DNA of 51,729 nt from Candidatus Arcticimaribacter sp. (GTDB lineage: Bacteria > Bacteroidota > Bacteroidia > Flavobacteriales > Flavobacteriaceae), in the NCBI GenBank assembly GCA_002708445.1, contig PAOB01000042.1, positions 1 through 51,729 on the forward strand, in the 5' to 3' direction. The notes under the pieces are model-generated. The model worked only from the letters and a program-made list of their open reading frames with translations, ran no database searches and was not told the DNA's origin. Both the position numbers and the translations under genes were made by a program. Below, one piece after another: positions 1 to 19,773 of the stretch (position 1 is its first letter; each line of letters begins with the position of its first letter).

Positions 1-97
1 CTCCTCTCCTTTGTGGACACGAATCCAAAGCAGCCGATTTACTCTTCTTGGTAATGGTGACTCTTCCTTTTCGTACTAATTGTGCAATAGTTGGCAT
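1..97 (-). CDS. rpsL: 30S ribosomal protein S12, N-terminal part (runs out of window)
   Basis: The reverse strand from the ATG at 97 reads [20 protein letters not shown] and continues with [12 protein letters not shown] to the window edge. This is the characteristic start of ribosomal protein S12, with the conserved QLVRKGR and CPQRRG segments. Only 32 codons are present; the remaining three quarters lie beyond position 1. S12 sits at the decoding centre of the 30S subunit and is the usual site of streptomycin-resistance mutations. A textbook Bacteroidota promoter lies about 35 bases upstream, so this is probably the first gene of the usual rpsL-rpsG-fusA operon reading out of the window (inferred). 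The identification rests on residues that are nearly invariant in the phylum. Confidence 0.95.
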
Positions 98-132
98 ATA
101 TAATTTTATATTTTTCCCTTTTTTAAGGGCTG

Positions 133-163
133 CAAATGTAAAACTTTTTTTTTTGGATTCAAA
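133..163 (-). promoter_or_regulatory. Promoter of rpsL (-33 TTTG / -7 TACATTTG)
   Basis: On the minus strand TTTG (163-160) is followed after 19 bases by TACATTTG (140-133). This matches the Bacteroidota sigma-A consensus TTTG-N19-21-TAnnTTTG at every defined position. Transcription would start near 129, leaving a leader of about 32 bases before the rpsL ATG at 97. It is the cleanest promoter in the window. Confidence 0.85.
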
Positions 164-227
164 CTGATTTGACTTAAAATACAGCTCTTATTTTGAATTT
201 TATTAACAATCGTTTTTTATCGATCTT

Positions 228-263
228 TTTGAAGTCAAAAAAAAATAAAAATTTGGCTTCAAG
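228..263. repeat. Inverted repeat able to form an 11-12 bp stem
   Basis: UUGAAGUCAAA (229-239) can pair with UUUGGCUUCAA (252-262), with one G-U pair and an A-rich loop of 12 bases. There is no T tract on either side, so it does not look like an intrinsic terminator. It lies between the rpsL promoter and the end of the recognisable pabB remnant and may be debris of that gene. Confidence 0.4.
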
Positions 264-659
264 ATTCAGGAGAATAACTTACAAATTGATCATTAAAAAA
301 AATTATATTGAGCTTTAGAAGTAAGAAAAAATTCTTTTAAGGAACCCTCAAAAGAAACTTCAGAGGGGAAAGTTAGATCCAAATAATAAACATCTCCATT
401 CTTTATGTGTTTTGCACCTGTTCAAAACCTGTTTTGTTACGATCTTTAATTTTGGTTTTAGGAGTAATATCAAACTTTTTTTCAACCAGGGTGATATTCA
501 AAATTTTTGCATCCACCAATGTCAAAAAAAACATTTTGATTTTTTGCCTCCTCTGGAGTGTAAATCAATGGTTATTTGCTCAAAATCGATCACAAAAAAG
601 AAAGGATTGGTTTTAGAAGCCAAATCATTTGCACGCTTAATAAAACTTTCAATTGACAA
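262..659 (-). pseudogene. pabB: Decayed N-terminal fragment of a PabB-like aminodeoxychorismate synthase component I
   Basis: No intact frame exists here, but stitching minus-strand frames gives a continuous protein-like string. Residues SFIKRANDLASKT and NPFFFVIDFEQ are read at 653-567, then FFDIGGCKNFEYHPG about 530-485 after a one-base shift in a run of eight T. The frame shifts again to KKFDITPK at 480-457 and then FEQVQ at 426-412. Next come KHIKNGDVYYLDLTFPSEVS and SLKEFFLTSKAQYNFF at 412-297, and last NDQFVSYSPES at 294-262. The pattern VQxHIxxGDxYxxxLTFP, SLxExFxxSKA and SPE is that of the chorismate-binding family, closest in my reading to Bacteroidota PabB (p-aminobenzoate branch of folate synthesis). 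At least four frameshifts are needed, and the catalytic C-terminal two thirds are absent. It is a relic, not a functional gene. TrpE or another family member is the main alternative. Confidence 0.7.
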
Positions 660-672
660 TATGAGGCATTAA

Positions 673-795
673 ATCAACAAAATAAAGATAAACGATTCTT
701 TAATTAACTTAAACTGAAATAAAGAAAATGTTGAGCATCGAATTAAAACTTGAAATAATTTTAAAATCTTACTAAGCCTCGATTAAGCCCTTCAT
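673..795. other. AT-rich intergenic stretch between the pabB relic and the next gene
   Basis: I see no open frame, hairpin with T tract or promoter motif that I can support here. It would have held the upstream region of the former pabB. Confidence 0.4.
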
Positions 796-1344
796 TTAAT
801 CGTCTGTAAAACCTCTTATGATTTCACATTCTTCATCGGTCCATTCTACAAAATCAACCTTAGTAAAAAAATCCCTGACCTCTGTTTGAAAAAGGGTATA
901 CTCAATCGAACGAATGTTAGGCGCCATAAGTCCGCCTCCATCATGAGATGCATTGAAAACATCATGACCCAGTTCATGGTACATCAAAAATATTTGCTCC
1001 CCTGTTTCAAGATTTCTAAAAGTAGTTTCGTCGATCAAAATCCTCACATAATCTTCGCAAGATCCATCAGCTCTTCCGGCAACATTACCAGGTAAATCTG
1101 TGGAAACAAAATTGACCTCCTCTATGTATGAAAGATCAATATCATAAAGAGCAGCAGATTCCTTGAAAATATTCCAATACGAATTCAAAAGATTTGGTCT
1201 TCCTTTTGAATAAATGGGATCGCTATCATAATCAATAACAACTACCTCTGGTTCCACAATCTCTTCAACAGGAACTTCGGGTTCAACTGGATCTGCGGAA
1301 CAAGCCGACAAGAGAACTAAGAGGATCATATAATACTTTTTCAT
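796..1344 (-). CDS. Putative metalloprotease-like lipoprotein (HELGH motif)
   Basis: This protein of 182 residues starts at the ATG at 1344. The start is chosen because it begins MKKYYMILLVLLSAC, a typical lipoprotein signal peptide with Cys15 as the lipidated residue; an in-frame upstream Met at 1410 would bury it. An acidic Pro/Glu/Val-rich tether (about residues 17-40) follows. The folded part contains HELGH (123-127), the zincin active-site motif, then His134 and a GGGLM turn with Met140. The arrangement recalls metzincins, but the third His is one residue further away than in HExxHxxGxxH. The chain is too short for a standard protease with a prodomain. The protein is probably exported and anchored by lipid. 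I do not recognise a named family; proteolytic activity is inferred from the motif only. Confidence 0.75.
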   Translation of the reverse strand: MKKYYMILLVLLSACSADPVEPEVPVEEIVEPEVVVIDYDSDPIYSKGRPNLLNSYWNIFKESAALYDIDLSYIEEVNFVSTDLPGNVAGRADGSCEDYVRILIDETTFRNLETGEQIFLMYHELGHDVFNASHDGGGLMAPNIRSIEYTLFQTEVRDFFTKVDFVEWTDEECEIIRGFTDD

Positions 1345-1411
1345 GATATAAATTTTAATATTAAATATAGTTTTACAGAGATTGTGTGTTTGAAAACAAC
1401 CAATATTCAAA

Positions 1412-1443
1412 CAAAATTACTAAAGTCTCAATATTTTTGAGAC
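1412..1443 (-). promoter_or_regulatory. Putative promoter with adjoining inverted repeat upstream of the metalloprotease-like lipoprotein
   Basis: The minus strand has TAATTTTG at 1419-1412, matching the -7 consensus TAnnTTTG, about 68 bases before the ATG at 1344. Just upstream is a perfect inverted repeat GTCTCAA-N5-TTGAGAC (1425-1443). No T tract follows it, so an operator overlapping the promoter is more likely than a terminator. No good -33 TTTG is visible. Confidence 0.45.
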
Positions 1444-1602
1444 ATCAATTAAAAAAAAATAAAAAATAATCACCTAACAAGACTAAAAACAATTGATTTT
1501 GTAACCCGATCAAACTCAAAAGTTATTGTAAAAAAACCAGTCTTCAAAAGCGAATTTTATCACTAAAAAAAATTGCTGTCCAAATCAGCTTGTTTTTTTC
1601 AC

Positions 1603-1610
1603 TATCTTTA
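1603..1610 (+). promoter_or_regulatory. -7-like element directly before the gene at 1615
   Basis: TATCTTTA differs from TAnnTTTG at the last base only and ends four bases before the ATG. If used, the transcript would be almost leaderless. No convincing -33 element is present. Confidence 0.4.
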
Positions 1611-1614
1611 AACA

Positions 1615-2319
1615 ATGAAATATCTTAATACTATATTTGCACTATTTTTAATCAGTACTTCTGTTAGAAGTCAAAATAGTATAAACCTAAATAATCCTAT
1701 CAGTTTCGAAGCCGTTAGAACAATGGCTAAAAAAATGAACAACACCACCCTCGACCTCTCAATAACTGAAGGTAGTCCCTATTTTAGTGATTCTTTTAAG
1801 GCAGCAGTTTTAAACCTCAAAAACATTGAGGGTGAAAATCAAATATGGCTCCGTTACAACGGTTACAACGATGAAATTGAAATTGGGAAAAGTGAAAAAC
1901 AACTTACTTCAAATGAAGCCCTTCTCAAAAGAAAAGATATTATTGCAAGCTTTGACAATAAAACCTATCAGTACAAAACTTTCAAAACAAAAAAAGGAGC
2001 TACAATTGACGGCTATTTGGTCATCCTCTATGAGGGTAAAGGATACAGTATTTTTAGACAAGATAAAAAGAAATTATCTGAAGGGAGAAAAGCTAATACT
2101 CCTCTAGAAGCTGATATTCAACCTCGTTTTAGTAACATCAAAACATATTTCATGTCAAGCGACAACAACGAAATCAATGAAATCAGTTTTAAATTAAAAA
2201 ATATTATCCCTTTAATTACTGAAAAAGATTATCCTAAATTACAAAAAATAAAAGGAGAATTTAAAAAAATTAAAACGGAGGAAAAACTCATTGAATTGAT
2301 CAAAAACCTAGAAAAGTAG
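1615..2319 (+). CDS. Secreted protein of unknown function
   Basis: This protein has 234 residues and an N-terminal signal peptide; hydrophobic residues 5-15 end near SVRSQ, with signal peptidase I cleavage likely around residue 19-20. The mature part contains SPYFSDSFKAAV and, after an insertion, LRYNGYNDEIEI. This resembles unnamed Bacteroidota envelope proteins that share a GSPYL...LRYNxYxDEME pattern (from memory, not checked). The C-terminal third is lysine-rich and predicted helical (ITEKDYPKLQKIKGEFKKIK). No catalytic motif, lipobox or beta-barrel signature is visible. It is a single gene, divergent from the metalloprotease-like lipoprotein, with no operon partner. The short spacing to the -7-like element at 1603 supports this ATG. 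Function unknown. Confidence 0.7.
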   Translation: MKYLNTIFALFLISTSVRSQNSINLNNPISFEAVRTMAKKMNNTTLDLSITEGSPYFSDSFKAAVLNLKNIEGENQIWLRYNGYNDEIEIGKSEKQLTSNEALLKRKDIIASFDNKTYQYKTFKTKKGATIDGYLVILYEGKGYSIFRQDKKKLSEGRKANTPLEADIQPRFSNIKTYFMSSDNNEINEISFKLKNIIPLITEKDYPKLQKIKGEFKKIKTEEKLIELIKNLEK

Positions 2320-2762
2320 TTTTTATTTCTCAAAGGTTCTTATCGCATTTGATCACTAAAGTTTAACTTCGAATTCACTTGTGAATCTTTATTTCAGTTA
2401 ACTTTTTATTGGTTTTTGCACATTAATTTGACACTAAAACAACCATTAAAATGGCAGTTTTGATGATGATTTTATCTCATAAATGCTTGATCAAGCATGA
2501 ATTTTGATGCAAAAAAAGTAATAAAAAGTATACTTGAAGTTACATGTTTTGACTGGAAACACCTCACAAACCCTTAAAAAGTAATCTGTTTATACTTTTA
2601 TTCAATTCAATTCAAGTTATTGATTAACAGACAACTATTGTTTATGGAAAATTTTACTAGAACTAATTACTCATAGCAAATAAAAAAAATAAAACAAATT
2701 TCCATGTAATGTTAAATTAATATCATAATTTCGTTAACAAATTTTTAACTATATATATTAAT
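2320..2762. other. 443-base AT-rich intergenic region before susC
   Basis: No gene is visible on either strand. It holds a 14-base inverted repeat ATTCAC-TT-GTGAAT (2373-2386) and a perfect 16-base palindrome at 2483-2498. The length suggests a regulated leader for the SusC/SusD operon, but I could not pick out a convincing TAnnTTTG element close to the susC start. Confidence 0.5.
2483..2498. repeat. Perfect 16-bp palindrome ATGCTTGATCAAGCAT
   Basis: Each half (ATGCTTGA / TCAAGCAT) is the exact reverse complement of the other, with no spacer. It lies 264 bases before susC in the only long gene-free stretch of this region. Such a site could be the operator of a dimeric regulator. By chance about one perfect 16-mer palindrome is expected in a window this size, so position rather than rarity is the argument. 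Confidence 0.45.
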
Positions 2763-5700
2763 ATGAAAAAACTATTACTATTGACCTCGGCGATGATGCT
2801 TGTAGCATTTACTGCCCTGGCACAAAAAACAGTAACAGGTGTTGTTTCAGATGATAGTGGTATTCCACTTCCTGGAGCATCTGTTGTAGAAAAAGGTACC
2901 AACAATGGTGTTAGTACTGATTTTGACGGTAATTATTCCATTGAAGTAGCTGAGGGGGCCGTTCTTGAGTTCAGCTTTATCGGTTATGAAACTATGGAAC
3001 AAAATGTTGGATCTTCTGATTCCATGAACATTTCCCTAGCAGCAGACAATGAGCTAGAAGAAGTTGTTCTTACGGCTTTGGGTTTAGAGAAGAAAAAAGA
3101 CGATGATCTTTCTTCTACAACTAAAGTTGAAGTTGATCAATTACAACGTTCAGGAGAATCAGGTCTTCTTCAAGGAATCTCTGGAAAAACTTCAGGAGTT
3201 AACATTACTCGTAACTCTGGAGATCCTGGTTCTGGGGCATACATTCAGCTTCGTGGACAAAACACAATCAACGGAGATAACTCTCCGTTAATAGTATTGG
3301 ATGGTGCAATCATCTCCAACGCAAATATTGGTGGTAACACTGCTGGAGTTGTCCAACAATCTCGTTTAAATGATATAAATCCTGAAGACATTGCTTCAGT
3401 TACGGTAATTAAAGGAGCATCTGCTGCTGCAATTTACGGAACTGGTGCTGCGAACGGGGTATTAGTTATCGAGACTAAGCGTGGTTCTACTGATAGTAAG
3501 GGATGGAGTGTTAATGTTAAATCTTCTATCTCTATTGACGAAATCAATGCAGAATGGGCTAAACAAGATACGTGGGGACAAGGATTTGATGGTATTTGGT
3601 ACGGTGATCCTGGAATTGGATACTACAACCAATCAACTTCTGTTTCTTACGGAGACGAAATCGCTTTACGTCCAGGTGGTGCTGATACTTACGACTTCAG
3701 CAGTACTTATTTCGAAACCCCTGACGGAAGAAGAATTGGAGATATTGTTGATAAAAACAGTAGAACCATTTACAACCAATCAAATAGAGATGCGGTATTT
3801 GGAAATGGATACACTTACGAAAATTCTGTAAACTTATCTTATACAGATGAAAAATCCAGAACATATCTTTCTTTCGCTAACTTCGACCAAAGTGGAATTA
3901 TTCAAGGAAATTCTGATTATAAGAGAACTACTTTGAAATTAAATAACACCACTCAAGCTACCGAGAATTTGTTATTCAAAATTTCATCTTCATACACAAA
4001 CATTGAATCAAATCGAGTTCAAACAGGATCTAACCTAAATGGTTTGTATTTAGGATACCTTAGAACATCTCCTGATTTTGATATTCGTGACTGGCAAGGG
4101 AAAAATTACAGAACAGTTGGAACTGCTACTTTTGTAACTCCTAATTCTCACAGAAGTTACCGACGTCCAACTGGATCGTACAGAACTTTTGATAATGCAT
4201 CAGGGTCATACAACTATGCTGCGCCAACGTACAACAATCCCCTATGGACAATCAATCAACAACAAAACGTAAACACTGTTGATCGTTTTATTTTCGCTCC
4301 TGAGGTAAACTACAAAGTAGGTTTCTTAACCTTTGTTGCTCGTTACAGTATGGACTTTTACCAAGACAATCGTACGGATTACCAACCTGCAGGTTCTGCT
4401 GGTAGTGGTAACAACGGAACTTGGGATGAGGACCGTATCACCGAGAAAAACTCTCAATTAAACTTATTTGTTACAGGTGACAACAAACTAACTGATGACA
4501 TTAGCATCAATTATGTTCTAGGTTACCAACAATACGAAAACAACTACAGAAGATTAAGTGCTTTTGAAGCTAACTTTACAAATCCAGATCAGATTTTCTT
4601 CAATCCAGGTAATACAACTGGTGTGAACTCTATTCCTAGTGGATTTACTTCTTTAACAAGAAAAAGTGGGGTTTATGGTCTTATCAACCTTGAGTTGTAC
4701 GACAATTTCTTGGTAGAAATTACAGGACGAGGAGAACGGGTATCTACATTACCAGGAGCAGGAGTGATATTCTACCCTAGTGCATCTTTAGGATATAAAA
4801 TTACAGATCTAATTGGGGCTGACTTCCTTAACTTTGGTAAGGTAAGAGTTTCTTACGGAGAGGTTGGAATTGAAGCGAATCCTTATGCAACTTCAACAAC
4901 TTTTGGACCTGGAGGAACTGACGGAACTTGGGGTGACGAATTAGCTGGAAATCTTTATGGAAATCCATTTACTCAATCAGCTACTCGTGGTAATCCAGAC
5001 CTGAAAGAAGAAAGAAAGAGTGAGATCGAATTTGGTTTCGATGCACGTATGTTTGATAGCCGATTATCTATTGGATTTACATATTATGACAACAAAACTA
5101 AAGACGTGATTTTGGCTTTACCGAGTACTCCTTCTTCAGGATTTGAAAACTCACTTCAAAATGCTGCTACAATAACTAATAAAGGTATTGAAATTGACTT
5201 TAATGTAAACTTACTTAGAGGAGAAGACTTAAATGCTTCTATTAGTGGTAGCTTTACTCAAAACAAAAACGTAGTAACAGATTTAGCAGGTAGTTCTTAT
5301 TTCGCACTAAACGGATTTACATCTACTTCTTCAGGTATTGCTGAAGGATACCCTTACGGTGTTCTTAGAAGTGGTGTTTATGAAAGAGATGCTTCTGGTA
5401 ATTTTGTTACCAATGCTAATGGATTCCCAAATGCTGCTTCTGAAAAGAAAGTTGGTGTTGGAGATCCTAACCCAGACTTCCGTGCTGGCCTTGGATTAAA
5501 TGTAGACTACAAAAACTTTGCTTTTTCTGCAATGTTTGAAACATCTCAAGGTAATGATGTTTGGAATGGAACTTATGGAGTGTTACACTACATGGGTATT
5601 CATGCGAATACTGGTGCAAAAACAGTTAACAATACAGGTGGTACGATAGTAAATAGTGCTGGAACACCAATACCTGATGGAGCTTCCTTCCGTGGTTATT

Positions 5701-6041
5701 TAGATAACTTCGGTGCTGGGCCTGTTGCAATTGACTCTGAATGGTGGACTACTAACGGTGGTGGATTCGGAGATGTTGGAGAACCATTTATTATGGACGG
5801 TTCTTGGGTCAAGCTAAGAGAAGTTACTCTAAGCTACAGATTTGACCCAGCTCTTCTTGAGAGTATTAAAGTTAAATCATTAGTTCTCTCTGTTTCTGGA
5901 AGAAACTTATTCACATGGACAGATATTGAAGGCTTTGACCCAGAGAATAACTTAACTGGAGCATCAAGAGGTAGAGGTTTAGAGTATTTCAGTAACCCTG
6001 GAACACGATCTTTCTTGACTACACTTAGAATTGGATTTTAA
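2763..6041 (+). CDS. SusC/RagA-family TonB-dependent outer membrane transporter
   Basis: This protein of 1092 residues imports substrates captured by its SusD partner across the outer membrane, powered by TonB-ExbBD. The signal peptide MKKLLLLTSAMMLVAFTALA is followed from residue 22 by a carboxypeptidase-regulatory-like domain (KTVTGVVSDD to about 95). A TonB-box-like segment EVVLTALG follows near residue 100. The plug has GKTSGVNITRNSGDPG, IQLRGQNTINGD and PLIVLDG, the SusC hallmarks. The rest is a barrel rich in aromatic and Asn/Gly residues ending in RSFLTTLRIGF. Length is normal for the family. Codon choice is more uniform than in neighbours (GGT/GGA, CGT, AAC), as in highly expressed genes. 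susD follows after 4 bases. The substrate cannot be read from the sequence because no carbohydrate enzyme, peptidase or regulator is adjacent. Confidence 0.95.
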   Translation: MKKLLLLTSAMMLVAFTALAQKTVTGVVSDDSGIPLPGASVVEKGTNNGVSTDFDGNYSIEVAEGAVLEFSFIGYETMEQNVGSSDSMNISLAADNELEEVVLTALGLEKKKDDDLSSTTKVEVDQLQRSGESGLLQGISGKTSGVNITRNSGDPGSGAYIQLRGQNTINGDNSPLIVLDGAIISNANIGGNTAGVVQQSRLNDINPEDIASVTVIKGASAAAIYGTGAANGVLVIETKRGSTDSKGWSVNVKSSISIDEINAEWAKQDTWGQGFDGIWYGDPGIGYYNQSTSVSYGDEIALRPGGADTYDFSSTYFETPDGRRIGDIVDKNSRTIYNQSNRDAVFGNGYTYENSVNLSYTDEKSRTYLSFANFDQSGIIQGNSDYKRTTLKLNNTTQATENLLFKISSSYTNIESNRVQTGSNLNGLYLGYLRTSPDFDIRDWQGKNYRTVGTATFVTPNSHRSYRRPTGSYRTFDNASGSYNYAAPTYNNPLWTINQQQNVNTVDRFIFAPEVNYKVGFLTFVARYSMDFYQDNRTDYQPAGSAGSGNNGTWDEDRITEKNSQLNLFVTGDNKLTDDISINYVLGYQQYENNYRRLSAFEANFTNPDQIFFNPGNTTGVNSIPSGFTSLTRKSGVYGLINLELYDNFLVEITGRGERVSTLPGAGVIFYPSASLGYKITDLIGADFLNFGKVRVSYGEVGIEANPYATSTTFGPGGTDGTWGDELAGNLYGNPFTQSATRGNPDLKEERKSEIEFGFDARMFDSRLSIGFTYYDNKTKDVILALPSTPSSGFENSLQNAATITNKGIEIDFNVNLLRGEDLNASISGSFTQNKNVVTDLAGSSYFALNGFTSTSSGIAEGYPYGVLRSGVYERDASGNFVTNANGFPNAASEKKVGVGDPNPDFRAGLGLNVDYKNFAFSAMFETSQGNDVWNGTYGVLHYMGIHANTGAKTVNNTGGTIVNSAGTPIPDGASFRGYLDNFGAGPVAIDSEWWTTNGGGFGDVGEPFIMDGSWVKLREVTLSYRFDPALLESIKVKSLVLSVSGRNLFTWTDIEGFDPENNLTGASRGRGLEYFSNPGTRSFLTTLRIGF

Positions 6042-6045
6042 ATAA

Positions 6046-7401
6046 ATGAACATGAAAATATACAAATTAATTTTACCGATTTTTGCCATCCTAACAATAG
6101 TTAGCTGCGAAAATTACACAGAAGACATAAACAGTGACCCGAATGCATTTGTCGTTGCTTCATCTGACCTTCTCATTGGTCAGGTACAGCTTGCACTTAT
6201 GCAACACATGGGAAGTAACAACACTCGTTACGCTGCTGTTTTTAACAACCAAATGAGTGGTGGTGACCGTCAATATTTGACATTGAACACTTACTCACCT
6301 AACCGTGCTAACTACAACAGTATGTGGGATAATGCATATGTTGCAGGTATCAATAATGCTCAGTTGATCATCAATGATGTTCAAGCATCAGCTTTGGTAA
6401 AGGGAATTGCACAGATTTTACAAGGAACTTTCTTTGCTGATATGGCATTGCTTTATGGTGATGTTCCTTTTACAGAAGCAGTAAAACCTGACGAATTTCC
6501 AATGCCTAAATACGATAGCCAATCTGCAGTTGTAGCTGGAGCTATTGCTCTTATTGAAACAGGAATTGCCAATGTTGGAAATGCAACTATCGCTGATGGT
6601 TACGGAGGTTCTAGATTAGCAGGTGGTACTTGGGCCGAAGCTGGACACACATTAGCTGCGCGTTATGCGTTAGCTGCTGGTGATAACGCTACAGCGATTT
6701 CTCACGCTAATCAAGGAATTTCTTCAAGAGCTGGTGATTTAGTAACACAACATGGAACTGCTCAGTACAACAGAAACTTAATGTATCAGTTTGTTATTGA
6801 CCAAAGACAAGATTACTTAGTTGCTACAGATTCTCATTTAGCTAATCTATTGGACGGAACAGTAGACAGAAAACTTACTACTCCTGGAAATAGCCTAATT
6901 TATGCAAGCTACTTCCTAGCTGATGGTACTCCGGGTACTCCAAGTTTCCGTACTTTACTTAACACAAATGACGATGGTAGATATGCTCAGTCGGCATCTG
7001 CACCAATAGCTACTTGGTACGAGAATAAATTAATTCTTGCTGAGGCTTTACACACTACTAATTTTGCAGCTGCTCAAGGGCACTTAAATGATGTAAGAGC
7101 TGCACTAGCTGTTCAATACGGTTCTGATGCGACAGGGTTTCCTCCATCAACAACTACTGTAACTGCTGACCTAGCTTTCGAGATTATGGAAGAAAAATAT
7201 ATCACTTTAATTGGTGAATTGACTTCATACCATGACTTAAGAAGAAGTGGAAATTTGATAGGTGTACCTAACAAAACTACTGGAAGTACTGCGGCTACAG
7301 GATACCCACAACGTTTCCTTTATCCGCAAGATGAGGTTGATACTAATGAAAATGTACCTTCTCCTCTTCCAACGTTTTTCGAACCAACCCCATTATTTTA
7401 A
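6046..7401 (+). CDS. SusD/RagB-family nutrient-binding outer membrane lipoprotein
   Basis: This 451-residue lipoprotein has its lipobox at TIVSC (Cys21), so it is expected at the cell surface capping the SusC channel encoded just upstream. The N-terminal NYTEDINSDPNAF is the usual SusD start. WDNAYVAGINNAQLIINDV and GTFFADMALLYGDVPFTEAV are the tetratricopeptide-like helices with the family YGDVPF motif. A C-terminal IMEEKYITLIGELTSYHDLRRSG carries the conserved E-K-x-I and DLRR segments. It is somewhat shorter than classical SusD (about 550) and closer to the SusD-like_2 group. Either ATG at 6046 or 6052 could start it. The terminator at 7419 ends the operon. The ligand is unknown. Confidence 0.93.
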   Translation: MNMKIYKLILPIFAILTIVSCENYTEDINSDPNAFVVASSDLLIGQVQLALMQHMGSNNTRYAAVFNNQMSGGDRQYLTLNTYSPNRANYNSMWDNAYVAGINNAQLIINDVQASALVKGIAQILQGTFFADMALLYGDVPFTEAVKPDEFPMPKYDSQSAVVAGAIALIETGIANVGNATIADGYGGSRLAGGTWAEAGHTLAARYALAAGDNATAISHANQGISSRAGDLVTQHGTAQYNRNLMYQFVIDQRQDYLVATDSHLANLLDGTVDRKLTTPGNSLIYASYFLADGTPGTPSFRTLLNTNDDGRYAQSASAPIATWYENKLILAEALHTTNFAAAQGHLNDVRAALAVQYGSDATGFPPSTTTVTADLAFEIMEEKYITLIGELTSYHDLRRSGNLIGVPNKTTGSTAATGYPQRFLYPQDEVDTNENVPSPLPTFFEPTPLF

Positions 7402-7418
7402 TCTATATTAGATTACTT

Positions 7419-7450
7419 AAAAGGCTGCCTTTAGGCAGCCTTTTTTTTTT
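7419..7450 (+). terminator. Intrinsic terminator of the susC-susD operon
   Basis: AAAGGCTGCC and GGCAGCCTTT form a 10-bp stem with a TTTA loop, followed by an uninterrupted T tract to 7450. It is a textbook rho-independent terminator 18 bases after the susD stop. Confidence 0.93.
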
Positions 7451-7516
7451 GACTTTTTTTAAAAATTATTCTTTTGCGAACGATAATAAAACAACTAGCT
7501 TTGAAAAAAAATAAGA

Positions 7517-8254
7517 ATGGATACACAAGAGATCTTCGGAGTTCGTGCAATCATAGAATGCATAGAAGCAAATCAAAATATTGATAAAGTATTTTTATTA
7601 AAAGAGCAAAAAAGTTCTCTTTTCAAGCAACTTGAAAATTTAATTCGCGAAAAAAAAGTAGCTCATAGCTATGTCCCGATTGAGCGACTCGACCGATTTT
7701 CTAATAAAAACCATCAAGGTGCTGTTGCCACCATATCTCCCATTACTTATTGGGATTTAGAACCCTTGATTGAAAATGTATTAGAAAAAGAAGCAGTCCC
7801 AATATTTTTACTTCTCGATAATATTACAGATACTCGTAATTTGGGTGCAATCATTCGTTCCGCATCAGCTACTGGAGTTGCTGGAATTATTCTCCCGCAA
7901 AGCGGTAGTGCTAGAATAAATTCTGATACGATTAAAACCTCAGCAGGAGCTTTATTCTCAGTACCCATTGCCAAAGTAGATCACCTAAAAGATGCCATTT
8001 ATCTATTTAAAGCTTACGAGATTGAACCTCTTGCTATTTCAGAAAAGGTTTCGGAAACTGTTTATGAAAAGAACCTAAAAAAACCCATTGCCTTAATCAT
8101 GGGATCTGAAGAAAAAGGAATTTCAAAAGGAATTTTGAATGTTGTAACTGAAAAAGCTAAACTACCGATGGAAGGAGCCATAGCCTCGCTTAATGTTGCT
8201 GTTGCTTGTGGATGTGTTCTATATGAAATTGTAAGACAACGAAAATTCTCCTAA
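7517..8254 (+). CDS. rlmB: 23S rRNA 2'-O-ribose methyltransferase, RlmB type (SpoU/TrmH family)
   Basis: This 245-residue protein has the SpoU-family trefoil-knot methyltransferase signatures in order: NLGAIIRSA (108-116, with the catalytic-type Arg114), GSEEKG (196-201) and LPMEGAIASLNVAVA (216-230). The N-terminal 75 residues form the RNA-substrate-binding domain (IFGVRAIIECIEA, HQGAVA). By family it transfers a methyl group from S-adenosylmethionine to the ribose of a 23S rRNA guanosine (G2251 in E. coli). RlmB is preferred over TrmH because of the N-terminal domain and the FGVRAI and HQG motifs. It is followed by rarA after 18 bases and may be cotranscribed. A second, more divergent SpoU member lies at 14037. 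Confidence 0.9.
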   Translation: MDTQEIFGVRAIIECIEANQNIDKVFLLKEQKSSLFKQLENLIREKKVAHSYVPIERLDRFSNKNHQGAVATISPITYWDLEPLIENVLEKEAVPIFLLLDNITDTRNLGAIIRSASATGVAGIILPQSGSARINSDTIKTSAGALFSVPIAKVDHLKDAIYLFKAYEIEPLAISEKVSETVYEKNLKKPIALIMGSEEKGISKGILNVVTEKAKLPMEGAIASLNVAVACGCVLYEIVRQRKFS

Positions 8255-8272
8255 CTTACTTATCTTAGTGCT

Positions 8273-9550
8273 ATGATAGCACCATTAGCTGAACGAATGC
8301 GTCCAAAAACGATCGACCAATATGTAGGTCAACAACACTTAATTGGATCCAAAGGTGCACTGCTACCCATATTGAAAACAGGGCAATTACCCTCACTGAT
8401 ACTATGGGGACCGCCTGGTACCGGAAAAACCACCCTAGCCACCATTATGGCTAAAACAAACGATCGTCCCTTTTACAGCCTTTCAGCGATAAATTCAGGA
8501 GTAAAAGAAGTCCGTGAGATAATTGATAAAGCCAAAAAAAACGTAGGGCTATTTACTCAAAAAGGACCTCTGTTGTTTATTGATGAAATCCATCGGTTCA
8601 GTAAATCCCAGCAAGACTCTCTTCTAGGAGCAGTAGAAAAAGGATTTGTAACCTTGATAGGAGCCACCACTGAGAATCCTAGTTTTGAAGTAATCAAAGC
8701 GTTACTTTCCCGTTGTCAAGTTTACACCCTCAATCCACTTCTTAAGGAAGACCTTCAACTTCTTCTAAAGCGTGCAATTCAGGAGGATGAGATTCTAAAA
8801 GAAAAAAAAATAACTCTTGTTGAAGATCAAGCACTCCTCAAACTATCAGGAGGTGATGCACGAAAAATGTTATCTCTTCTAGAACTCATAGTAATGAGTC
8901 AGGACGGAAATAAAATCAGTATTACCGATGAAATTGTATTGGAAAAGGCACAAACAAAAACGGTTTTATTTGACAAAGATGGAGATCAACACTATGACAT
9001 CATATCGGCTTTTATCAAATCCATCCGCGGCAGTGATCCCAATGCAGCAGTTTATTGGTTAGCTCGGCTTATTGAAGGAGGAGAAGATGTGAAATTCATT
9101 GCTCGTCGGTTACTTATTTTGGCCTCCGAAGATATTGGAAATGCAAATCCAACTGCACTGGTTTTGGCAAACAATACTTTTCAGACAGTAGCAGCAATTG
9201 GATATCCAGAAGCTCGAATAATATTAAGCCAATGTGTAGTTTATTTGGCAACAAGCCCAAAAAGTAACGCAAGTTACAAGGCCATAGGAAAAGCTCAAAA
9301 ATTGGTAAATGATACTGGAAGCTTAAAAGTGCCGTTAGCTCTTAGAAATGCTGTAAGCCCACTAATGGAAGATTTGGACTATGGAAAAGGATACCAATAT
9401 GCACATGATTATGATTTGAATTTTGTAGATCAAGAATTTTTACCTAAAGAAATTAGTGAAACTAAATTTTATGAACCCGGTCAAAATTCTAAAGAGGAGA
9501 GTATTCGCTTGTTTCTAAAAAAACGCTGGAAAGATAAATATGATTACTAG
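8273..9550 (+). CDS. rarA: Replication-associated recombination protein A (AAA+ ATPase)
   Basis: This 425-residue AAA+ ATPase belongs to the RarA/MgsA/WRNIP1 family, which acts at stalled replication forks. Visible are [20 protein letters not shown] at the N-terminus, Walker [10 protein letters not shown] (about 46-54), Walker [11 protein letters not shown] (about 99-108), sensor 1 [10 protein letters not shown] and sensor 2 [12 protein letters not shown]. The C-terminal tetramerisation domain holds [21 protein letters not shown]. Length fits the family. The gene is convergent with trkH, and the two 3' ends overlap by 4 bases (9547-9550) with no room for a terminator. A TATCTTAG sequence shortly before the ATG resembles a -7 element, so rarA may also have its own promoter. 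Confidence 0.93.
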
Positions 9551-11043
9551 TTCTTTTTCCAAAAAAATGGAGTAAACAAAATCAAAACAGTAAAGAGTTC
9601 TAACCTTCCTAAGAGCATAAGAAAAGAAGCCCACCATTTTCCAAGTAAAGGCAATTCGCCATAAGAAAATGAAGGGCCATAATTACCAAGCGCTGGTCCA
9701 ACATTCCCCAAACTTGAAGCAGCAACACCAATTGCTGACTCAAAGTTTAACCCCAAAGCTCCAAAAACTAGAGCTCCAAAAATAAAAGACAGCATGTAAA
9801 GTATGAAGAAGGCATAAATATTATGAATTATTTCTTCTTTAAGTATGGAGCCGTTATGTCTTGGCTGAATGATAGCATTGGGATGCAGGGCCCGTTTGAA
9901 TTCTAAAAAACCACTTTTTATCATCAACAAATGACGTACTCCTTTGATTCCACCAGATGTCGATCCTGCAGAACCTCCAACAAACATTAATCCAAAAAAA
10001 ACTATGGTCAAAAAGGGAGTCCATGATGTAAAATCAGCAGTCACAAATCCAGTAGTGGTAATCACTGCAACTATTTGGAAAAAAGCATGGCGAAATGAAC
10101 TTTCAATTGATCCCAATACTTGGGGATGATCAAAAGAACTGACAGTCAAATCGACTTGGGTAAGCAAGACAATACTTACTAACAGGGTTGTTATTCCAAT
10201 AAAAAAGATAAAATATTTAAACTCTTGGTCGCGAAGAATTTTTTGAACTTTCCCTGTAAAAGCAAAATAGCTTAAAACAAAATTAGTTCCTGCAATGATC
10301 ATAAAAAAGGTGATGATGTACTGAATGATAGGAGTGTCATTCCAAAAAGCAATACTTGAATTTTTGGTAGAAAATCCCCCTGTAGAGACAGTACTCATAG
10401 CGTGATTAACTGCATCAAATAAACTCATTCCTGCAAAAAACAAAAGCAAGGTTTCAATTAATGTAAATCCAAAATAAATAAACCACAACCGTTTTGCAGT
10501 GTCCGTAATTCTTGGGTGCAGTTTATCGCTGCTAGGCCCTGGGGCCTCTGCAGCAAACAATTGCATTCCGCCAATGCCCAATAGGGGTAAAATAGCAATT
10601 GCCAAAACGATAATTCCCATTCCGCCTATCCAATGTGTTGTGCTTCTCCAAAATAAAATGCCCATAGGTAAAGATTCAATATCATTTAACACAGAAGAAC
10701 CTGTGGTTGTGTATCCAGACATTGTTTCAAAAAAAGCTGATGAAACATCGGGGATAACACCCGAAAAAAGATAAGGAAGCATTCCAGATAAGGACATCAA
10801 AACCCATCCAAAACTAACCACAATGTACCCCTCTCTTTTTTGGATTTGTTTGCTGTGATTCCGAGATAAAAGCATGATAAAGACCCCTAAAAACAAAACT
10901 AAAAAAGCAGCAAAAGTAAGCTCAAAAGTTACACCATCATCAGTCAATAGACTTACCAAAGAAGACAACAACATAAATCCTCCATTGAAAAGGAGAAGCA
11001 GTCCCATGAGGTTTGCTATGATTTGTTTATTGATTTTATGCAT
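9547..11043 (-). CDS. trkH: Trk/Ktr potassium transporter membrane subunit
   Basis: This 498-residue polytopic inner membrane protein has the four M1-pore-M2 repeats of the TrkH/KtrB superfamily. The four selectivity-filter loops are readable: SGYTTTGSS, STVSTGGFS, AVITTTGFV and SSLGNVGPA, each keeping the key glycine. It takes up potassium, gated by the cytoplasmic ring of TrkA encoded directly upstream; the trkA stop is one base before this ATG. Two extra N-terminal hydrophobic segments make it TrkH-like rather than the shorter KtrB. Nothing is missing. Transcription most likely comes from the promoter upstream of trkA. Confidence 0.93.
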   Translation of the reverse strand: MHKINKQIIANLMGLLLLFNGGFMLLSSLVSLLTDDGVTFELTFAAFLVLFLGVFIMLLSRNHSKQIQKREGYIVVSFGWVLMSLSGMLPYLFSGVIPDVSSAFFETMSGYTTTGSSVLNDIESLPMGILFWRSTTHWIGGMGIIVLAIAILPLLGIGGMQLFAAEAPGPSSDKLHPRITDTAKRLWFIYFGFTLIETLLLFFAGMSLFDAVNHAMSTVSTGGFSTKNSSIAFWNDTPIIQYIITFFMIIAGTNFVLSYFAFTGKVQKILRDQEFKYFIFFIGITTLLVSIVLLTQVDLTVSSFDHPQVLGSIESSFRHAFFQIVAVITTTGFVTADFTSWTPFLTIVFFGLMFVGGSAGSTSGGIKGVRHLLMIKSGFLEFKRALHPNAIIQPRHNGSILKEEIIHNIYAFFILYMLSFIFGALVFGALGLNFESAIGVAASSLGNVGPALGNYGPSFSYGELPLLGKWWASFLMLLGRLELFTVLILFTPFFWKKN

Positions 11044-11044
11044 C

Positions 11045-12394
11045 TTATTGAAACAAACTTTCTACTTTTCGAATCGCTCGAGGTAGGCAACAAACTACAA
11101 CACGATCACCTGCTTCAATAATGTAGTCTCCTAAAACGATAGCACCTGTACCTTCTTTTATTACACCTCCAATTGTTGCTGATCTTGGGAAGTTAATATC
11201 TTTAATACTTAAACCGTTGACTTTAGATTCTGGCTTTACAATAAATTCTAAAATTTCAGCATTCATATTTGTCAATGTAGTCATATCGACAACCTCTCCC
11301 CTTCTAATGTATCTAAAGATAGTATTTGCTGTGAGTAATTTTTTATTGATTAAAGTATCTATTCCTATGGAATGCGATAGTTGAAAATAATCCATGTTCT
11401 CTACCAAAGCGATCGCTTTCTTTACTTTTTTTGATTTAGCCATTAAACAGGACATGATGTTAGTCTCCGAATTTTCAGTGACCGAAATAAAAGCGTCCAT
11501 TGAATCGATATCTTCTTCTTCTAGGAGTTCTACACTCCTTCCATCTCCGTGAATAACCATTGCATTGGGGAGTTGGTCTGCAATTTCAAAAGCCTTTGTT
11601 TTATTTTGCTCTACAATAGTGACGTTAAATTTTTTCTCGCACAACTCACGAGCAGTATTCAAGCCTATTTTTCCACCCCCTAAAATCATGATATTTTTAA
11701 CAGATTCTTTGGTTTTCCCAGTCAACTTGTACAATTCTTCTACTCCTTCCTTCAAGGTTATAAAATAAACTTGATCATTAGGTTCAAAAACCGTATCTCC
11801 CCGAGGTATTATTGTGTACTGGGTTTCTTTGCGTTGCAAAGCAATAGGCATAAAATGTAGATCTGGAAATATCGTTGCCGCCTCTTTTACGGACTTTCCT
11901 ACAAAAGGAACCGAAGGATCTAATTTTGTTCCAATAAGGGTAAGTTCGCCATTTTCAAACTCATAACTGTCACTAAATGCTGACTGATCAAGTAGTTGTT
12001 GTATTTCAATAGCAGCTAATTCTTCGGGTGAAAAAAGCTCATCTACGCCTAAATCAGAAAAACTAACCCCATCTGTGGCATTGATGAATTCAATACTTGA
12101 AATACGAGCAAGTGTTTTTTTACAACCCAATTGCTTTGCTAAAGCACAAATAGTTATGTTGGTGGTCTCTTGTGCAGTGACAGAAATAAATAGATCGGAG
12201 TTTCCGACATCGGCGTCTCTTATCAAGGATAAGGAACATGCATCACCCTTTATCGTTTTGATGTCTAAATTATTTTCAGCATAATTGAGACGCTCCTTAT
12301 CGGTGTCAATAAGGGTAATATCTTGGGATTCGAAAGAAAGAAGTTTAGCAAGATGAAATCCAACTTCTCCAGCCCCTGCGATAATTATTTTCAT
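11045..12394 (-). CDS. trkA: Trk potassium uptake regulatory protein TrkA
   Basis: This 449-residue cytoplasmic protein contains two complete RCK units, as in full-length TrkA. The first Rossmann fold begins MKIIIAGAGEVG and has an acidic residue at the end of strand 2 (TLIDTD) for NAD(H) binding. The second begins near residue 234 with NIMILGGGKIG and TIVEQN. Each is followed by a TrkA-C domain (about 140-220 and 370-449). It assembles under TrkH and gates potassium flux in response to nucleotides. It is first gene of a two-gene operon with trkH and divergent from menG, with promoter motifs for both directions in the 160-base gap. Confidence 0.93.
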   Translation of the reverse strand: MKIIIAGAGEVGFHLAKLLSFESQDITLIDTDKERLNYAENNLDIKTIKGDACSLSLIRDADVGNSDLFISVTAQETTNITICALAKQLGCKKTLARISSIEFINATDGVSFSDLGVDELFSPEELAAIEIQQLLDQSAFSDSYEFENGELTLIGTKLDPSVPFVGKSVKEAATIFPDLHFMPIALQRKETQYTIIPRGDTVFEPNDQVYFITLKEGVEELYKLTGKTKESVKNIMILGGGKIGLNTARELCEKKFNVTIVEQNKTKAFEIADQLPNAMVIHGDGRSVELLEEEDIDSMDAFISVTENSETNIMSCLMAKSKKVKKAIALVENMDYFQLSHSIGIDTLINKKLLTANTIFRYIRRGEVVDMTTLTNMNAEILEFIVKPESKVNGLSIKDINFPRSATIGGVIKEGTGAIVLGDYIIEAGDRVVVCCLPRAIRKVESLFQ

Positions 12395-12419
12395 AGAGTG
12401 ATATTCGATAAACTCATAA

Positions 12420-12458
12420 CAAATATACTAATTAGTTTAGAGTTTGTTCACAAATGTA
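12420..12458 (-). promoter_or_regulatory. Promoter region of trkA-trkH
   Basis: The minus strand carries TATATTTG at 12427-12420, a full match to TAnnTTTG, about 25 bases before the trkA ATG. A second match, TACATTTG, is at 12458-12451; its TTTG could instead serve as a -33 element with a long 23-base spacer. One or two start sites are possible. Confidence 0.55.
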
Positions 12459-12542
12459 ATTCTCATAAATTTAAATTGAATCGATACAATACTTTACTGT
12501 GAATAATGAGAACTAAATAGCGGATAAAATCACTCCATTACA

Positions 12543-12550
12543 TATCTTTG
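12543..12550 (+). promoter_or_regulatory. -7 element of menG
   Basis: TATCTTTG matches TAnnTTTG exactly and is followed six bases later by the menG ATG at 12557. Transcription would begin only about three bases before the start codon. This also rules out the TTG at 12548, which lies inside the promoter element. Confidence 0.6.
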
Positions 12551-12556
12551 CATTCT

Positions 12557-13288
12557 ATGAAAAAGAGTGTTACCCCTTATGCTAACCAGCAAGGTTCCAA
12601 AAAAAAGCAGGTTACCAAAATGTTTGATGGGATTTCTTCAAATTACGACTTTTTGAATCGAATAATATCCCTTGGTATCGATATTAAATGGAGAAATAGA
12701 GTTGTTGAAATTTTGATGGCCAAAAAACCCAATAGCATTTTGGATATTGCTACTGGAACAGGAGATTTGGCTTTAGCACTCTATAAAACACGGGCCTCAA
12801 GGATTGTCGGCCTTGATATTTCACCAGGAATGCTCGCCAAGGGAAAGGATAAAGTTAATGCACAAAATTTGGAAAACACTATTGAAATGGTTCTAGGAGA
12901 CAGTGAGGCATTAAAGTACAAAGAATGTTCCTTCGATGCAGTTACTGTAGCTTTTGGGGTTCGGAATTTTGAAAACCTAGAATTGGGCCTATCCGAATTA
13001 TTTAGAGTCCTAAAATCAGAGGGAACTTTGGTAATTCTAGAAACTGCTGTCCCAACGAAATTTCCCTTTAAACAAGGTTATTCAATCTACACAAAATTCT
13101 TAGTCCCCTTAATGGGTAAGCTCTTTACTCGCGATCAAGCTGCCTATAAATATCTTTCGGATTCTGCTGCTGTTTTTCCTCATGGAAAACAGTTCAACAA
13201 TATTTTAAAGAAAATTGGGTTTATAGAAGTAGAAGATCGCCCACAAACCTTAGGGGTTGCTTCAATTTATTGTGCCACAAAACCTTAA
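12557..13288 (+). CDS. menG: Demethylmenaquinone methyltransferase
   Basis: This protein of 243 residues catalyses the last step of menaquinone synthesis, SAM-dependent C-methylation of demethylmenaquinone (UbiE/MenG family). Motifs are MFDGISSNYDFLNRIISLG near the N-terminus, the SAM site ILDIATGTGDLAL, the acidic strand end IVGLDISPGML, and AFGVRNFENL plus the C-terminal PHGKQFNNILKKIGF. The start is the ATG at 12557, because the longer frame begins with a TTG inside the -7 element. In a respiring flavobacterium menaquinone rather than ubiquinone is the expected product, hence menG (also called ubiE). Its 3' end overlaps porT by up to 32 bases, implying translational coupling. Confidence 0.92.
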   Translation: MKKSVTPYANQQGSKKKQVTKMFDGISSNYDFLNRIISLGIDIKWRNRVVEILMAKKPNSILDIATGTGDLALALYKTRASRIVGLDISPGMLAKGKDKVNAQNLENTIEMVLGDSEALKYKECSFDAVTVAFGVRNFENLELGLSELFRVLKSEGTLVILETAVPTKFPFKQGYSIYTKFLVPLMGKLFTRDQAAYKYLSDSAAVFPHGKQFNNILKKIGFIEVEDRPQTLGVASIYCATKP

Positions 13289-14036
13289 TCTAAAGTTATT
13301 ATTTCATTTAATAATCCTTTCACTTCTGGGGGTTAAGCTTTCTTATGCTCAATATCCAACAGTTCGTGAGCGGATTCAACACCTTCAAGATTTTGATGAA
13401 AAATTTTTGCATTACGGATACTTTTTTGGTTTTAATGAATTTGGATACAAAATTGAGTATGTCAGGGACTATTCTGGATCAACCATACTAAAAGGGCGCG
13501 GATTACCTGACATTAATATTGTTAAAAACTTTGGTTTCAACGTAGGTCTTATTGGTGACATGCGCATCAATAAATTTTTGAACCTTCGATTTGAACCAGG
13601 ACTCTATTATTCTCAACGAGACTTTATTTACCCAAAAGCAACACCTGGACTTGTTACAGATCAAGATTATCTCAGAGAAATAAAATCTACCTACATTCAT
13701 CTTCCATTCCTAGTGAAATTCAGTTCAGAACGAATCAACAACTTTAGACCTTTTCTTGTGGGCGGTATTTCAACTTCCTTTAATCTTTCTAGTAATGATA
13801 AAAATAAAGACGATAATTCAAACAATGTTTTTCGGGTAATAAATCAAACCTACAACTATGAAATTGGATTTGGAATTGACTTTTATTTACCGTACTTCAA
13901 ATTTTCGCCATCCATTAGAGGAGTTTTTTCTATTGATAATGAAATCATTCAAGACAACGATCCAACAAGCCCTTGGACCTCTAACATTGATAAATTATTC
14001 TCACAGGGACTGATAATCAATTTTACTTTTGAATAA
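13257..14036 (+). CDS. porT: PorT-family outer membrane protein (type IX secretion)
   Basis: This protein of up to 259 residues has a signal peptide (LLFHLIILSLLGVKLSYAQ) and an eight-stranded-type barrel pattern. Segments such as GYFFGFNEFGYKIEYVRDY, FGFNVGLIGDMRINKFLNLR and ELGLYYSQRDF-like strands occur, ending in GLIINFTFE. It fits PorT/SprT, an outer membrane component needed for type IX secretion and gliding, and porT directly after menG/ubiE is a common Bacteroidota arrangement. There is no ATG in frame before the signal peptide. Translation must start at TTG 13257 or GTG 13272, both inside menG, so it is probably coupled to menG translation. The family call rests on length, signal, strand pattern and context. 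Confidence 0.85.
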   Translation: MLQFIVPQNLNLKLLFHLIILSLLGVKLSYAQYPTVRERIQHLQDFDEKFLHYGYFFGFNEFGYKIEYVRDYSGSTILKGRGLPDINIVKNFGFNVGLIGDMRINKFLNLRFEPGLYYSQRDFIYPKATPGLVTDQDYLREIKSTYIHLPFLVKFSSERINNFRPFLVGGISTSFNLSSNDKNKDDNSNNVFRVINQTYNYEIGFGIDFYLPYFKFSPSIRGVFSIDNEIIQDNDPTSPWTSNIDKLFSQGLIINFTFE

Positions 14037-14750
14037 TTAAGGCTTGAATGCTTGCCCCAAAATAATTGCAGCTGCAAGAGCCACATTTAAACTTTCAGCT
14101 CCATTTTTTGAGCCAAAACGAGGTATTGTAAGTTTATGTTGAATAATTGCCTCAACTTCTTGAGATATTCCATGTGATTCGCTTCCCATTATCAAAACAC
14201 CTTCAGGATCAATTGAAGTGTTGTAAATTGAATTTCCTTTCATAAAAGTTCCATAAATTGGTTTGCTAGACTTTTTGAGAAAAGCTACAAGATTAGTGTA
14301 AACACAACTGATATTTGATAATGATCCCATTGTTGCTTGAACAACCTTTGGATTGTAGCAATCCACTGTATTGGGCGAACATATCAAACTAGAAATTCCA
14401 AACCAGTCACAAAGTCTGATAATCGTTCCTAAATTCCCTGGGTCTGTTACTCCATCTAGAACCATAATAAGACCCTCCTGAAAAAATTCATTTTGCTTTG
14501 GTATTCGAAAAATCCCAAGCACTTTACTTGGTGATTTCAACAAGGTAATCCTTTCCATCTCCTTTGGGCTTACATAATTGAATTCAGCTTCATCAAAAGC
14601 ATCAACTGCGTAAATTACCTCTGCTTTACATCCCGACTTCAATAAATCTAGAACTGTTTTTTTACCCTCGGCAATAAAAACACCTTCTTCTTTTCGATTC
14701 TTTTTGTGTCGTAAATTTTTGATTCGTTTGATTTCATTCTTTGTAATCAT
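14037..14750 (-). CDS. SpoU/TrmH-family RNA 2'-O-methyltransferase, substrate not assigned
   Basis: This 237-residue SAM-dependent ribose methyltransferase has the three family motifs: LDGVTDPGNLGTIIR (about 97-111), IMGSESHGIS (about 188-197) and LTIPRFGSKNGAESLNVALA (about 206-226). The N-terminus, ITKNEIKRIKNLRHKKNRKEEGVFIAEGKK, is the basic RNA-binding domain seen in the TsnR/YsgA-like branch. It differs clearly from the RlmB at 7517, so the two are not recent duplicates. Which rRNA or tRNA nucleotide it modifies cannot be told from sequence. It is divergent from tamL with three bases between the longest frames, and convergent and directly abutting with porT. Confidence 0.88.
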   Translation of the reverse strand: MITKNEIKRIKNLRHKKNRKEEGVFIAEGKKTVLDLLKSGCKAEVIYAVDAFDEAEFNYVSPKEMERITLLKSPSKVLGIFRIPKQNEFFQEGLIMVLDGVTDPGNLGTIIRLCDWFGISSLICSPNTVDCYNPKVVQATMGSLSNISCVYTNLVAFLKKSSKPIYGTFMKGNSIYNTSIDPEGVLIMGSESHGISQEVEAIIQHKLTIPRFGSKNGAESLNVALAAAIILGQAFKP

Positions 14751-14759
14751 AAAATGATG

Positions 14760-14767
14760 TATTTTTG
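14760..14767 (+). promoter_or_regulatory. -7 element of tamL
   Basis: TATTTTTG fits TAnnTTTG. A TTTG at 14740-14743 is upstream with a short 16-base spacer. The element lies inside the longest tamL frame and so argues for the downstream TTG start at 14787. Confidence 0.5.
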
Positions 14768-14786
14768 CCTTAAATTAGGTATTACT

Positions 14787-17333: not shown

Positions 17334-17343
17334 AAAAAAAAGT

Positions 17344-17351
17344 TACATTTG
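17344..17351 (+). promoter_or_regulatory. -7 element of fbaA
   Basis: TACATTTG matches TAnnTTTG, 11 bases after the tamL stop and 39 before the fbaA ATG. No TTTG at -33 is visible. It suggests that fbaA is transcribed separately from tamL. Confidence 0.5.
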
Positions 17352-17389
17352 GGGCTTTAAATTTTGACAAAAACAAAACAAGCATTTTT

Positions 17390-18460
17390 ATGAGTTCAAA
17401 AATACCATCTGGTGTAATTACTGGAAAAAAAGTTCAAGAAGTATTTGCACTAGCTAAACAAAAACAATTTGCGCTCCCCGCCGTAAATGTGATTGGAAAC
17501 AATACCATAAACACAGTTTTAGAAACTGCAGCAGAACTGAATAGTCCTGTTATCATTCAGTTTTCTAATGGTGGAGCAATTTTTAACGCAGGGAAAAGTT
17601 TAGACAACGGCGATCAAAAAGCAGCAATTGCTGGGGCTGTTGCTGGAGCAAAACACATTCATGAATTAGCAGAAGCTTATGGAGCAACTGTTATCTTAAA
17701 TACAGACCACTGTGCAAAAAAGTTATTGCCTTGGATTGATGGTTTGCTTGATGCAGGAGAAAAATTTTATTCAGAAACTGGAAAACCTCTTTTCAGTTCT
17801 CACATGATTGATCTTTCTGAAGAATCACTTGAAGAAAATATTGAGACATGTAAAACATACCTCAAGCGAATGTCAAAAATGGGAATGACCCTCGAAATTG
17901 AGCTTGGCATCACAGGTGGAGAAGAAGACGGAGTTGACAACAGCGATGTTGATGTTTCAAAATTGTACACACAACCCGAGGAGGTTGCCTACGCATTCGA
18001 AGAATTAAGAAAAGTAAGTGATCAGTTCACGGTTGCTGCTGCTTTTGGAAATGTTCATGGAGTGTACAAACCTGGTAACGTAAAACTCACTCCAAAAATC
18101 CTTAAAAACTCACAAGAATACATCAGCGAAAAGTACAGCTTACCTGAAAACACTGTAGATTTTGTTTTTCATGGTGGATCGGGTTCAACTGTCGAAGAAA
18201 TTAGAGAAGCAATCGGATATGGTGTGATAAAAATGAATATCGATACCGATTTACAGTTTGCCTTCACTGAAGGGATTCGTGATTACATGATTGATAATAT
18301 TGAATATCTAAAAACTCAAATCGGAAATCCAGAAGGTAAAGATCAGCCAAACAAAAAGAACTATGATCCTAGAAAATGGCTTCGCATAGGAGAACAAACC
18401 TTCAAACAAAGATTAACTCAAGCATTTGAAGATTTAAATAATATCAATACATTAGCCTAA
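17390..18460 (+). CDS. fbaA: Class II fructose-bisphosphate aldolase
   Basis: This 356-residue zinc aldolase of glycolysis and gluconeogenesis cleaves fructose 1,6-bisphosphate to glyceraldehyde 3-phosphate and dihydroxyacetone phosphate. The E. coli FbaA-type signatures are present: LNTDHCAKK (Asp106, zinc ligand His107), [17 protein letters not shown] (about 169-185), [13 protein letters not shown] (zinc ligand His223), FHGGSGS (zinc ligand His261) and [13 protein letters not shown]. The ATG at 17390 is chosen because it gives the family length (E. coli 359), and the longer frame overlaps tamL and spans a promoter motif. accD follows after 14 bases, so the two are probably cotranscribed. 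Confidence 0.95.
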
Positions 18461-18474
18461 CCAAAAAGGAACAA

Positions 18475-19332: not shown

Positions 19333-19352
19333 GAATTAATCAAAAATATATG

Positions 19353-19360
19353 TATCTTTG
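19353..19360 (+). promoter_or_regulatory. -7 element of rpsO
   Basis: TATCTTTG followed by C matches the consensus. The start site would be near 19364 and the leader about 44 bases. No -33 TTTG at the expected distance. Confidence 0.6.
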
Positions 19361-19364
19361 CAGC

Positions 19365-19378
19365 GCCTTAAAAAAGGC
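19365..19378 (+). promoter_or_regulatory. Small hairpin in the rpsO leader
   Basis: GCCTT and AAGGC enclose an AAAA loop at the very 5' end of the predicted rpsO transcript. rpsO leaders in several bacteria are bound by S15 for autoregulation. This stem might take part, but it is short and nothing further in the leader confirms it. Confidence 0.3.
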
Positions 19379-19407
19379 ATACATAACAATCATTAAATAA
19401 TATTAGC

Positions 19408-19677: not shown

Positions 19678-19773
19678 ATCAAATTTTGTCCCTTTTGGGG
19701 GAATAAAAAGCTGAATTCTAGTTTTTCATTGGTATCCTACAACAACACAACACAACGTTTAGGTTTAACAAAA

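Follow-up and report, generated by a model that had tools for sequence, protein, structure and literature searches.

A decaying pabB remnant upstream of rpsL and the probable loss of p-aminobenzoate synthesis in Candidatus Arcticimaribacter

The window analysed in this study is a stretch of 51,729 nucleotides from Candidatus Arcticimaribacter sp., contig C30 of genome G000 (1.56 Mb, about 65% complete), and we compared it within a set of 19 genomes of the genus, G000 included. The contig stops 97 bp into rpsL, whose truncated start (2..97, minus strand) shares 90.6-100% identity over 32 codons with the ATG-start rpsL of the congeners. Upstream lies a promoter-like site, TTTG-N19-TACATTTG (133..163, minus strand), identical in G007 and G016; this pattern has three matches in the window against 2.1 expected by chance, and the consensus behind it is presumably that of Bacteroidetes promoters. 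A second promoter/leader-like copy, 81% over about 50 bp, occurs in G000 at C32:15007-15063 (L229, about 1508-1564), just upstream of genes whose protein sequences look like those of rplM and rpsI. Comparable second sites are found in G007, G016, G010, and G003. On the other side of the locus, a small ORF that resembles a lipoprotein and contains a HELGH motif (796..1344, minus strand) is 80% identical to its counterpart in G007 and 89% to that in G016, with no match in Pfam or NCBIfam. This ORF, a syntenic anchor, adjoins an intact pabB in G007 and a pabB remnant in G016. Far from this locus, the Rfam model RF03161 (S15-Flavobacteria ribosomal protein leader) scores 58.9 bits at positions 19353-19410.

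Between rpsL and the HELGH ORF lies a pabB remnant (262..659, minus strand), defined by tblastn, frameshift-aware alignment, and alignment with intact relatives. Read from 659 to 262, it corresponds to the N-terminal codons 1-134 of about 323 in PabB, and the catalytic C-terminal part is gone. With the intact PabB of G007 as a query against window positions 1-1500 (database size 1.5 Mb), tblastn returned E=9.9e-19 over 656..576 and 577..296, and a second frame, 564..262, returned E=1.2e-6. A frameshift-aware alignment to PabB residues 1-134 (window 659..265) scored 398, whereas 12 dinucleotide shuffles reached 55 at most. These results bear out the sequence-only reading, which had proposed a pabB-like pseudogene beside rpsL at 262-659; its coordinates were right to within a few bases and the peptides it quoted are present in the minus-strand frames. 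The same reading was loose in stating that no ORF covers the stretch: short minus-strand ORFs (522..659, 403..534, and 360..485) and an 86-codon plus-strand ORF (412..672), antisense to the pabB homology, do overlap it. We found no support for the plus-strand ORF as a gene. Stop-to-stop frames of at least 150 codons span 93% of the window, positions 1-798 being the larger of its two gaps over 350 bp between such frames, and the breakage is local to the remnant region.

The orthologous intact ORF of G007 matches the model NF005486 'aminodeoxychorismate synthase component I' with 447.6 bits (cut-off 275). This makes the intact homologue a PabB rather than a TrpE or MenF; the TrpE and MenF proteins of the genus were set apart from it by BLAST score and length, with one MenF (G016) and one TrpE (G000) scanned against profiles. 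The single Chorismate_bind match in G000 is TrpE-like, its best NCBIfam model being TIGR00564 trpE_most at 420.9 bits, below the cut-off of 517.7, and this ORF also bears an Anth_synt_I_N domain. Compared with the short PabB family (NF005486, PRK07093), the remnant aligns with residues 1-134 of the G007 orthologue, lacks residues 135-323, and is frameshifted, so that it is not a functional member.

The frameshift-aware alignment places four frameshifts near 578, 496, 410, and 304, together with one in-frame stop. In the alignment with ten intact relatives (seven displayed), the corresponding gaps measure 2, 2, 1, and 2 bases, and some of these indels lie in or near homopolymers, much as the sequence-only reading had it when it counted at least four frameshifts. 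The first codon is TTG, as in G014, where the other nine of the ten aligned intact relatives have ATG. Alignment with G007 and G016 locates a deletion junction at 259..264 (minus strand), at which about 190 C-terminal pabB codons and the whole of pabC are missing; the loss of the catalytic part had been noted from the sequence alone. Directly past the junction is an AT-rich inverted repeat (226..262, minus strand) that looks terminator-like by eye. A terminator hairpin at this point was rejected, as folding was no better than that of shuffled sequences in either G000 or G016 (window 200-290: z -0.32). Among all compared loci, the post-junction sequence is found only in these two genomes.

Comparison of the region upstream of rpsL, which the sequence-only reading had suggested, revealed a pabB-pabC pair on the same strand and contig as rpsL, 0.2-1.4 kb off, in seven of the 18 congeners (G003, G005, G007, G008, G009, G012, and G013). 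In these genomes pabB, which is interrupted in G013, has about 323 codons and pabC 196-203. The two genes overlap by 17 bases in G007, and an extra ORF separates the pair from rpsL in G005 and G009. In G002, the pair shares one contig with the rpsL upstream region. Pfam assigns the PabC of G007 to the class-IV aminotransferases with 52 bits, and the protein falls below every NCBIfam cut-off. Since the intact pair occupies the same site in relatives, the remnant is, judged by sequence and position, a pseudogene of the genus's own short-type pabB at its native site and not a redundant copy.

A full-length pabB is present in ten of the 19 genomes (G002, G003, G004, G005, G007, G008, G009, G012, G014, and G018), which are spread over the genus tree. 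A short PabC is encoded in nine (G002, G003, G005, G007, G008, G009, G012, G013, and G018), and the contig stops just past pabB in G004 and G014. In G013, pabB is present twice, in identical copies that lie about 6.4 kb apart (C1:408668-409402 and 415095-415829; L051, L230), and so is pabC. Both pabB copies have TGA at a tryptophan codon kept in G007 and G008, and the genes between them are presumably SusD/SusC-like. Assembly errors are possible there because the TrpE of G013 is also split over several frames.

Remnants of pabB were detected in two genomes, G000 and G016, whereas G010 and G011 have contiguous flanks without pabBC. In these last two, 12 comparisons at the rpsL site (three regions, two queries, two strands; 60 shuffles each) gave none above all shuffles, the best being reached by 3 of 60. 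We did not find pabB in G001, G006, G015, and G017, four genomes in which the rpsL site is not assembled. None of the eight pabB-less genomes has a short PabC, and no other short pabB or pabC, nor a 430-aa PabB of the type usual in the family, was found in them. Judged by BLAST score and length, every Chorismate_bind match of these eight genomes groups with either TrpE or MenF; the sorting did not take in a few matches from elsewhere in the genus, for example small fragments in G003 and G014.

In a MetH tree, G000 and G016 group together (94/87), beside G007 and G001. On a single 101-kb contig, G016 carries the HELGH neighbour, rpsL, and a pabB 5' stretch of about 95 bp. The G016 remnant aligns to that of G000 with a score of 84.5 (maximum of 500 shuffles, 52.5). 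Against the intact G007 gene it stays within shuffles, both as DNA (43.5; maximum of 50 in 200) and in a frameshift alignment to the protein (41; shuffle range 30-55). Near codon 28, a stretch that measures 9 bases in the intact genes shown is 7 bases long in G000 and G016. By sequence, this -2 indel and the common post-junction sequence look like shared lesions. However, the indel is short and located in an A-run, and the post-junction sequence may instead be ancestral intergenic sequence.

Elsewhere in the tree, G005, the sister of G010 (100/100), keeps pabBC, and G011 pairs only weakly (48/36) with G014, which keeps pabB. Given these two relatives and the spread of the ten intact genomes over the tree, pabB has likely been lost at least three times independently in the genus. 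A count of five changes on the MetH tree was set aside, as it labelled G001, G006, G015, and G017 as lacking pabB without an assembled site.

Substitutions bear on the timing of inactivation. The NG86 dN/dS between the remnant and G007 is 0.256 (127 of 134 codons), only modestly above the 0.13-0.19 of three intact pabB pairs, two at similar dS and one at a dS of 1.28; two further intact pairs were saturated in dS and were left out. For the flanking genes the values are 0.08 and 0.13, and for MetH 0.064. On the G000 side, 16 derived changes fall at codon positions 1 and 2 and 7 at position 3, against 7 and 8 on the G007 side, all small numbers. Therefore, constraint appears to have been lifted, and not long ago: arithmetic from the dN/dS comparison would put inactivation about 0.10-0.13 dS units back. 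On the other hand, the common -2 indel and junction sequence suggest inactivation before the split of G000 and G016. The branch to that split is 0.18, half the MetH dS of 0.36, and flanking-gene dS values of 0.71 and 0.94 give longer ones. A recent inactivation by substitutions sits uneasily with lesions older than this split. The earlier view that the stretch reflects old decay is thus only partly supported: it gains from the lesions shared with G016 and loses from the small rise in dN/dS.

The genes of folate assembly were counted across the genus. FolP is intact in G000 (TIGR01496, 307.5 bits, cut-off 162.6), and a stand-alone FolP is present in 17 of the 19 genomes, including a partial one in G017, and absent from G002 and G004; other Pterin_bind matches, in frames of 792-928 codons, were taken for MetH. 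FolK matches were obtained in 18 genomes (none in G000), GTP cyclohydrolase I in 18 (none in G004), and FolB in 15 (none in G000, G002, G006, and G011). Both G016 and G010 keep FolE, FolB, FolK, and FolP and lack pabBC. G000 has two full-length GTP_cyclohydroI ORFs; a third such copy at C3:15198-15608 is broken by several stops, and a broken copy also occurs on contig C3 of G012. Longer class-IV aminotransferases are common, with frames of 271-311 codons in 18 of the 19 genomes (G000 and G016 among them, G014 not) and a second type of 350-372 codons in 15. The 280-aa protein of G000 has no NCBIfam model above cut-off and is of unclear role; it may be a lyase, which would be left without a substrate when PabB is missing. 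As for uptake, we identified no p-aminobenzoate importer, and AbgT was found in none of the 19 genomes.

We propose, with a probability of roughly 0.8, that the locus holds the decaying 5' part of the only pabB of the genus, and that p-aminobenzoate synthesis has probably been lost, with imported p-aminobenzoate going to FolP. In relatives, short-type pabB (aminodeoxychorismate synthase) and short pabC form an overlapping pair upstream of rpsL. A deletion of about 1.2 kb, a size estimated from G007, would have taken all of PabC together with the C-terminal part of PabB, leaving about 100 bp between its end and the promoter-like site of rpsL; what remained of pabB would have been broken by small indels. 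The cell would then probably be unable to make p-aminobenzoate, and import would feed FolP; this auxotrophy and uptake we infer, next to the observed loss in the sister genome and the intact folP. Loss of p-aminobenzoate synthesis, one of the outcomes anticipated from the sequence alone, is probable; a search for pabB or short pabC elsewhere in G000 (65% complete) or G016 (80% complete), two incomplete genomes, found neither.

That same incompleteness is what would allow pabBC to have moved, the remnant marking its old site and an intact copy sitting in the missing part of G000. Replacement by an unrelated route is the related idea, for which an unknown p-aminobenzoate route proposed for Lactobacillus plantarum offers a precedent in the text consulted (PMC4403557). 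We consider relocation or replacement unlikely: the eight pabB-less genomes yielded no other gene of either PabB type and no short pabC, and replacement, which the sequence-only reading had allowed for, was looked for and not found. A TENA/CADD-like protein (PF03070, the family to which we take CADD to belong) was likewise found in none of the 19 genomes. The suggestion that the remnant is a redundant second copy fares worse and is very improbable. Duplication does occur in the genus, as G013 illustrates, but the remnant sits at the native syntenic site and neither G000 nor G016 yielded another copy, nor did any other of the eight pabB-less genomes, four of them with no assembled rpsL site.

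Sequencing or assembly error in an intact gene could be suspected from the homopolymer indels and from the contig end adjoining the remnant. We give this still less credence, as the C-terminal part and pabC are missing altogether, long frames fill 93% of the window, and G016 independently shows the neighbour, a short remnant, and rpsL. Finally, a position directly upstream of rpsL might fit a functional RNA or an rpsL leader instead of a coding remnant. This is hardly credible given protein-level homology over 134 codons, unexceptional folding of 200-290, and an Rfam scan of window 1-20000 in which the S15 leader is the sole match at gathering score.

The short pair itself is unusual in the family. 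Among 18 family genomes from other genera, 16 have PabB ORFs of the usual type, 428-437 aa long, and none of the 19 genomes of this genus does; the remaining two of the 18, G022 and G028, have candidate frames of 428 and 439 aa. This longer PabB, whose G019 member best matches TIGR00553 pabB (314.8 bits, just under the cut-off of 328.4), has the same predicted reaction as the short one. A short PabC was found in only five of 149 family genomes sampled, G012 among them. It may be that this rare short pair took the place of the 430-aa PabB usual in the family. Relatives of short PabB are found in Pasteurellaceae at 49-51% identity, which together with the rarity in the family may be a sign that the pair was transferred.

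In the excerpts consulted, a folate pathway without the p-aminobenzoate branch is described for 454 gut strains, explained by an 'unknown route' or 'salvage' (PMC6593275), pabAc is reported missing in four of 51 gut Bacteroidetes (PMC4403557), and absence of the branch is coded as a pathway variant (PMC1971073). The gut strains of the first two reports, as excerpted, share the same hole, with folate-assembly genes kept and p-aminobenzoate synthesis gone. In the present case, by contrast, the decay of the gene is still visible, and there are probably several losses in one genus. No title or opening of an abstract among the matches listed, in a search whose coverage leaves out most subscription journals, mentions pabB loss in Flavobacteriaceae. 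The best reading is p-aminobenzoate auxotrophy with folate assembly kept, a known kind of pathway hole. The remnant is a real, ordinary pseudogene at a place well suited to show a vitamin-precursor synthesis that has probably been lost more than once in the genus. A bolder version is unlikely: that the genus repeatedly drops this synthesis and keeps FolP because the compound reaches it by some undescribed route or importer, the rpsL site being a recurrent point of loss. If it were true, the transition could be watched at this site. Within this one genus the loss is seen in stages, from relatives with the intact gene, through one half-decayed and one nearly erased copy, to clean absence. The genus is therefore suited to testing the idea of p-aminobenzoate as a bacterial shared good, and the reading predicts a supplement that could aid the cultivation of these organisms.
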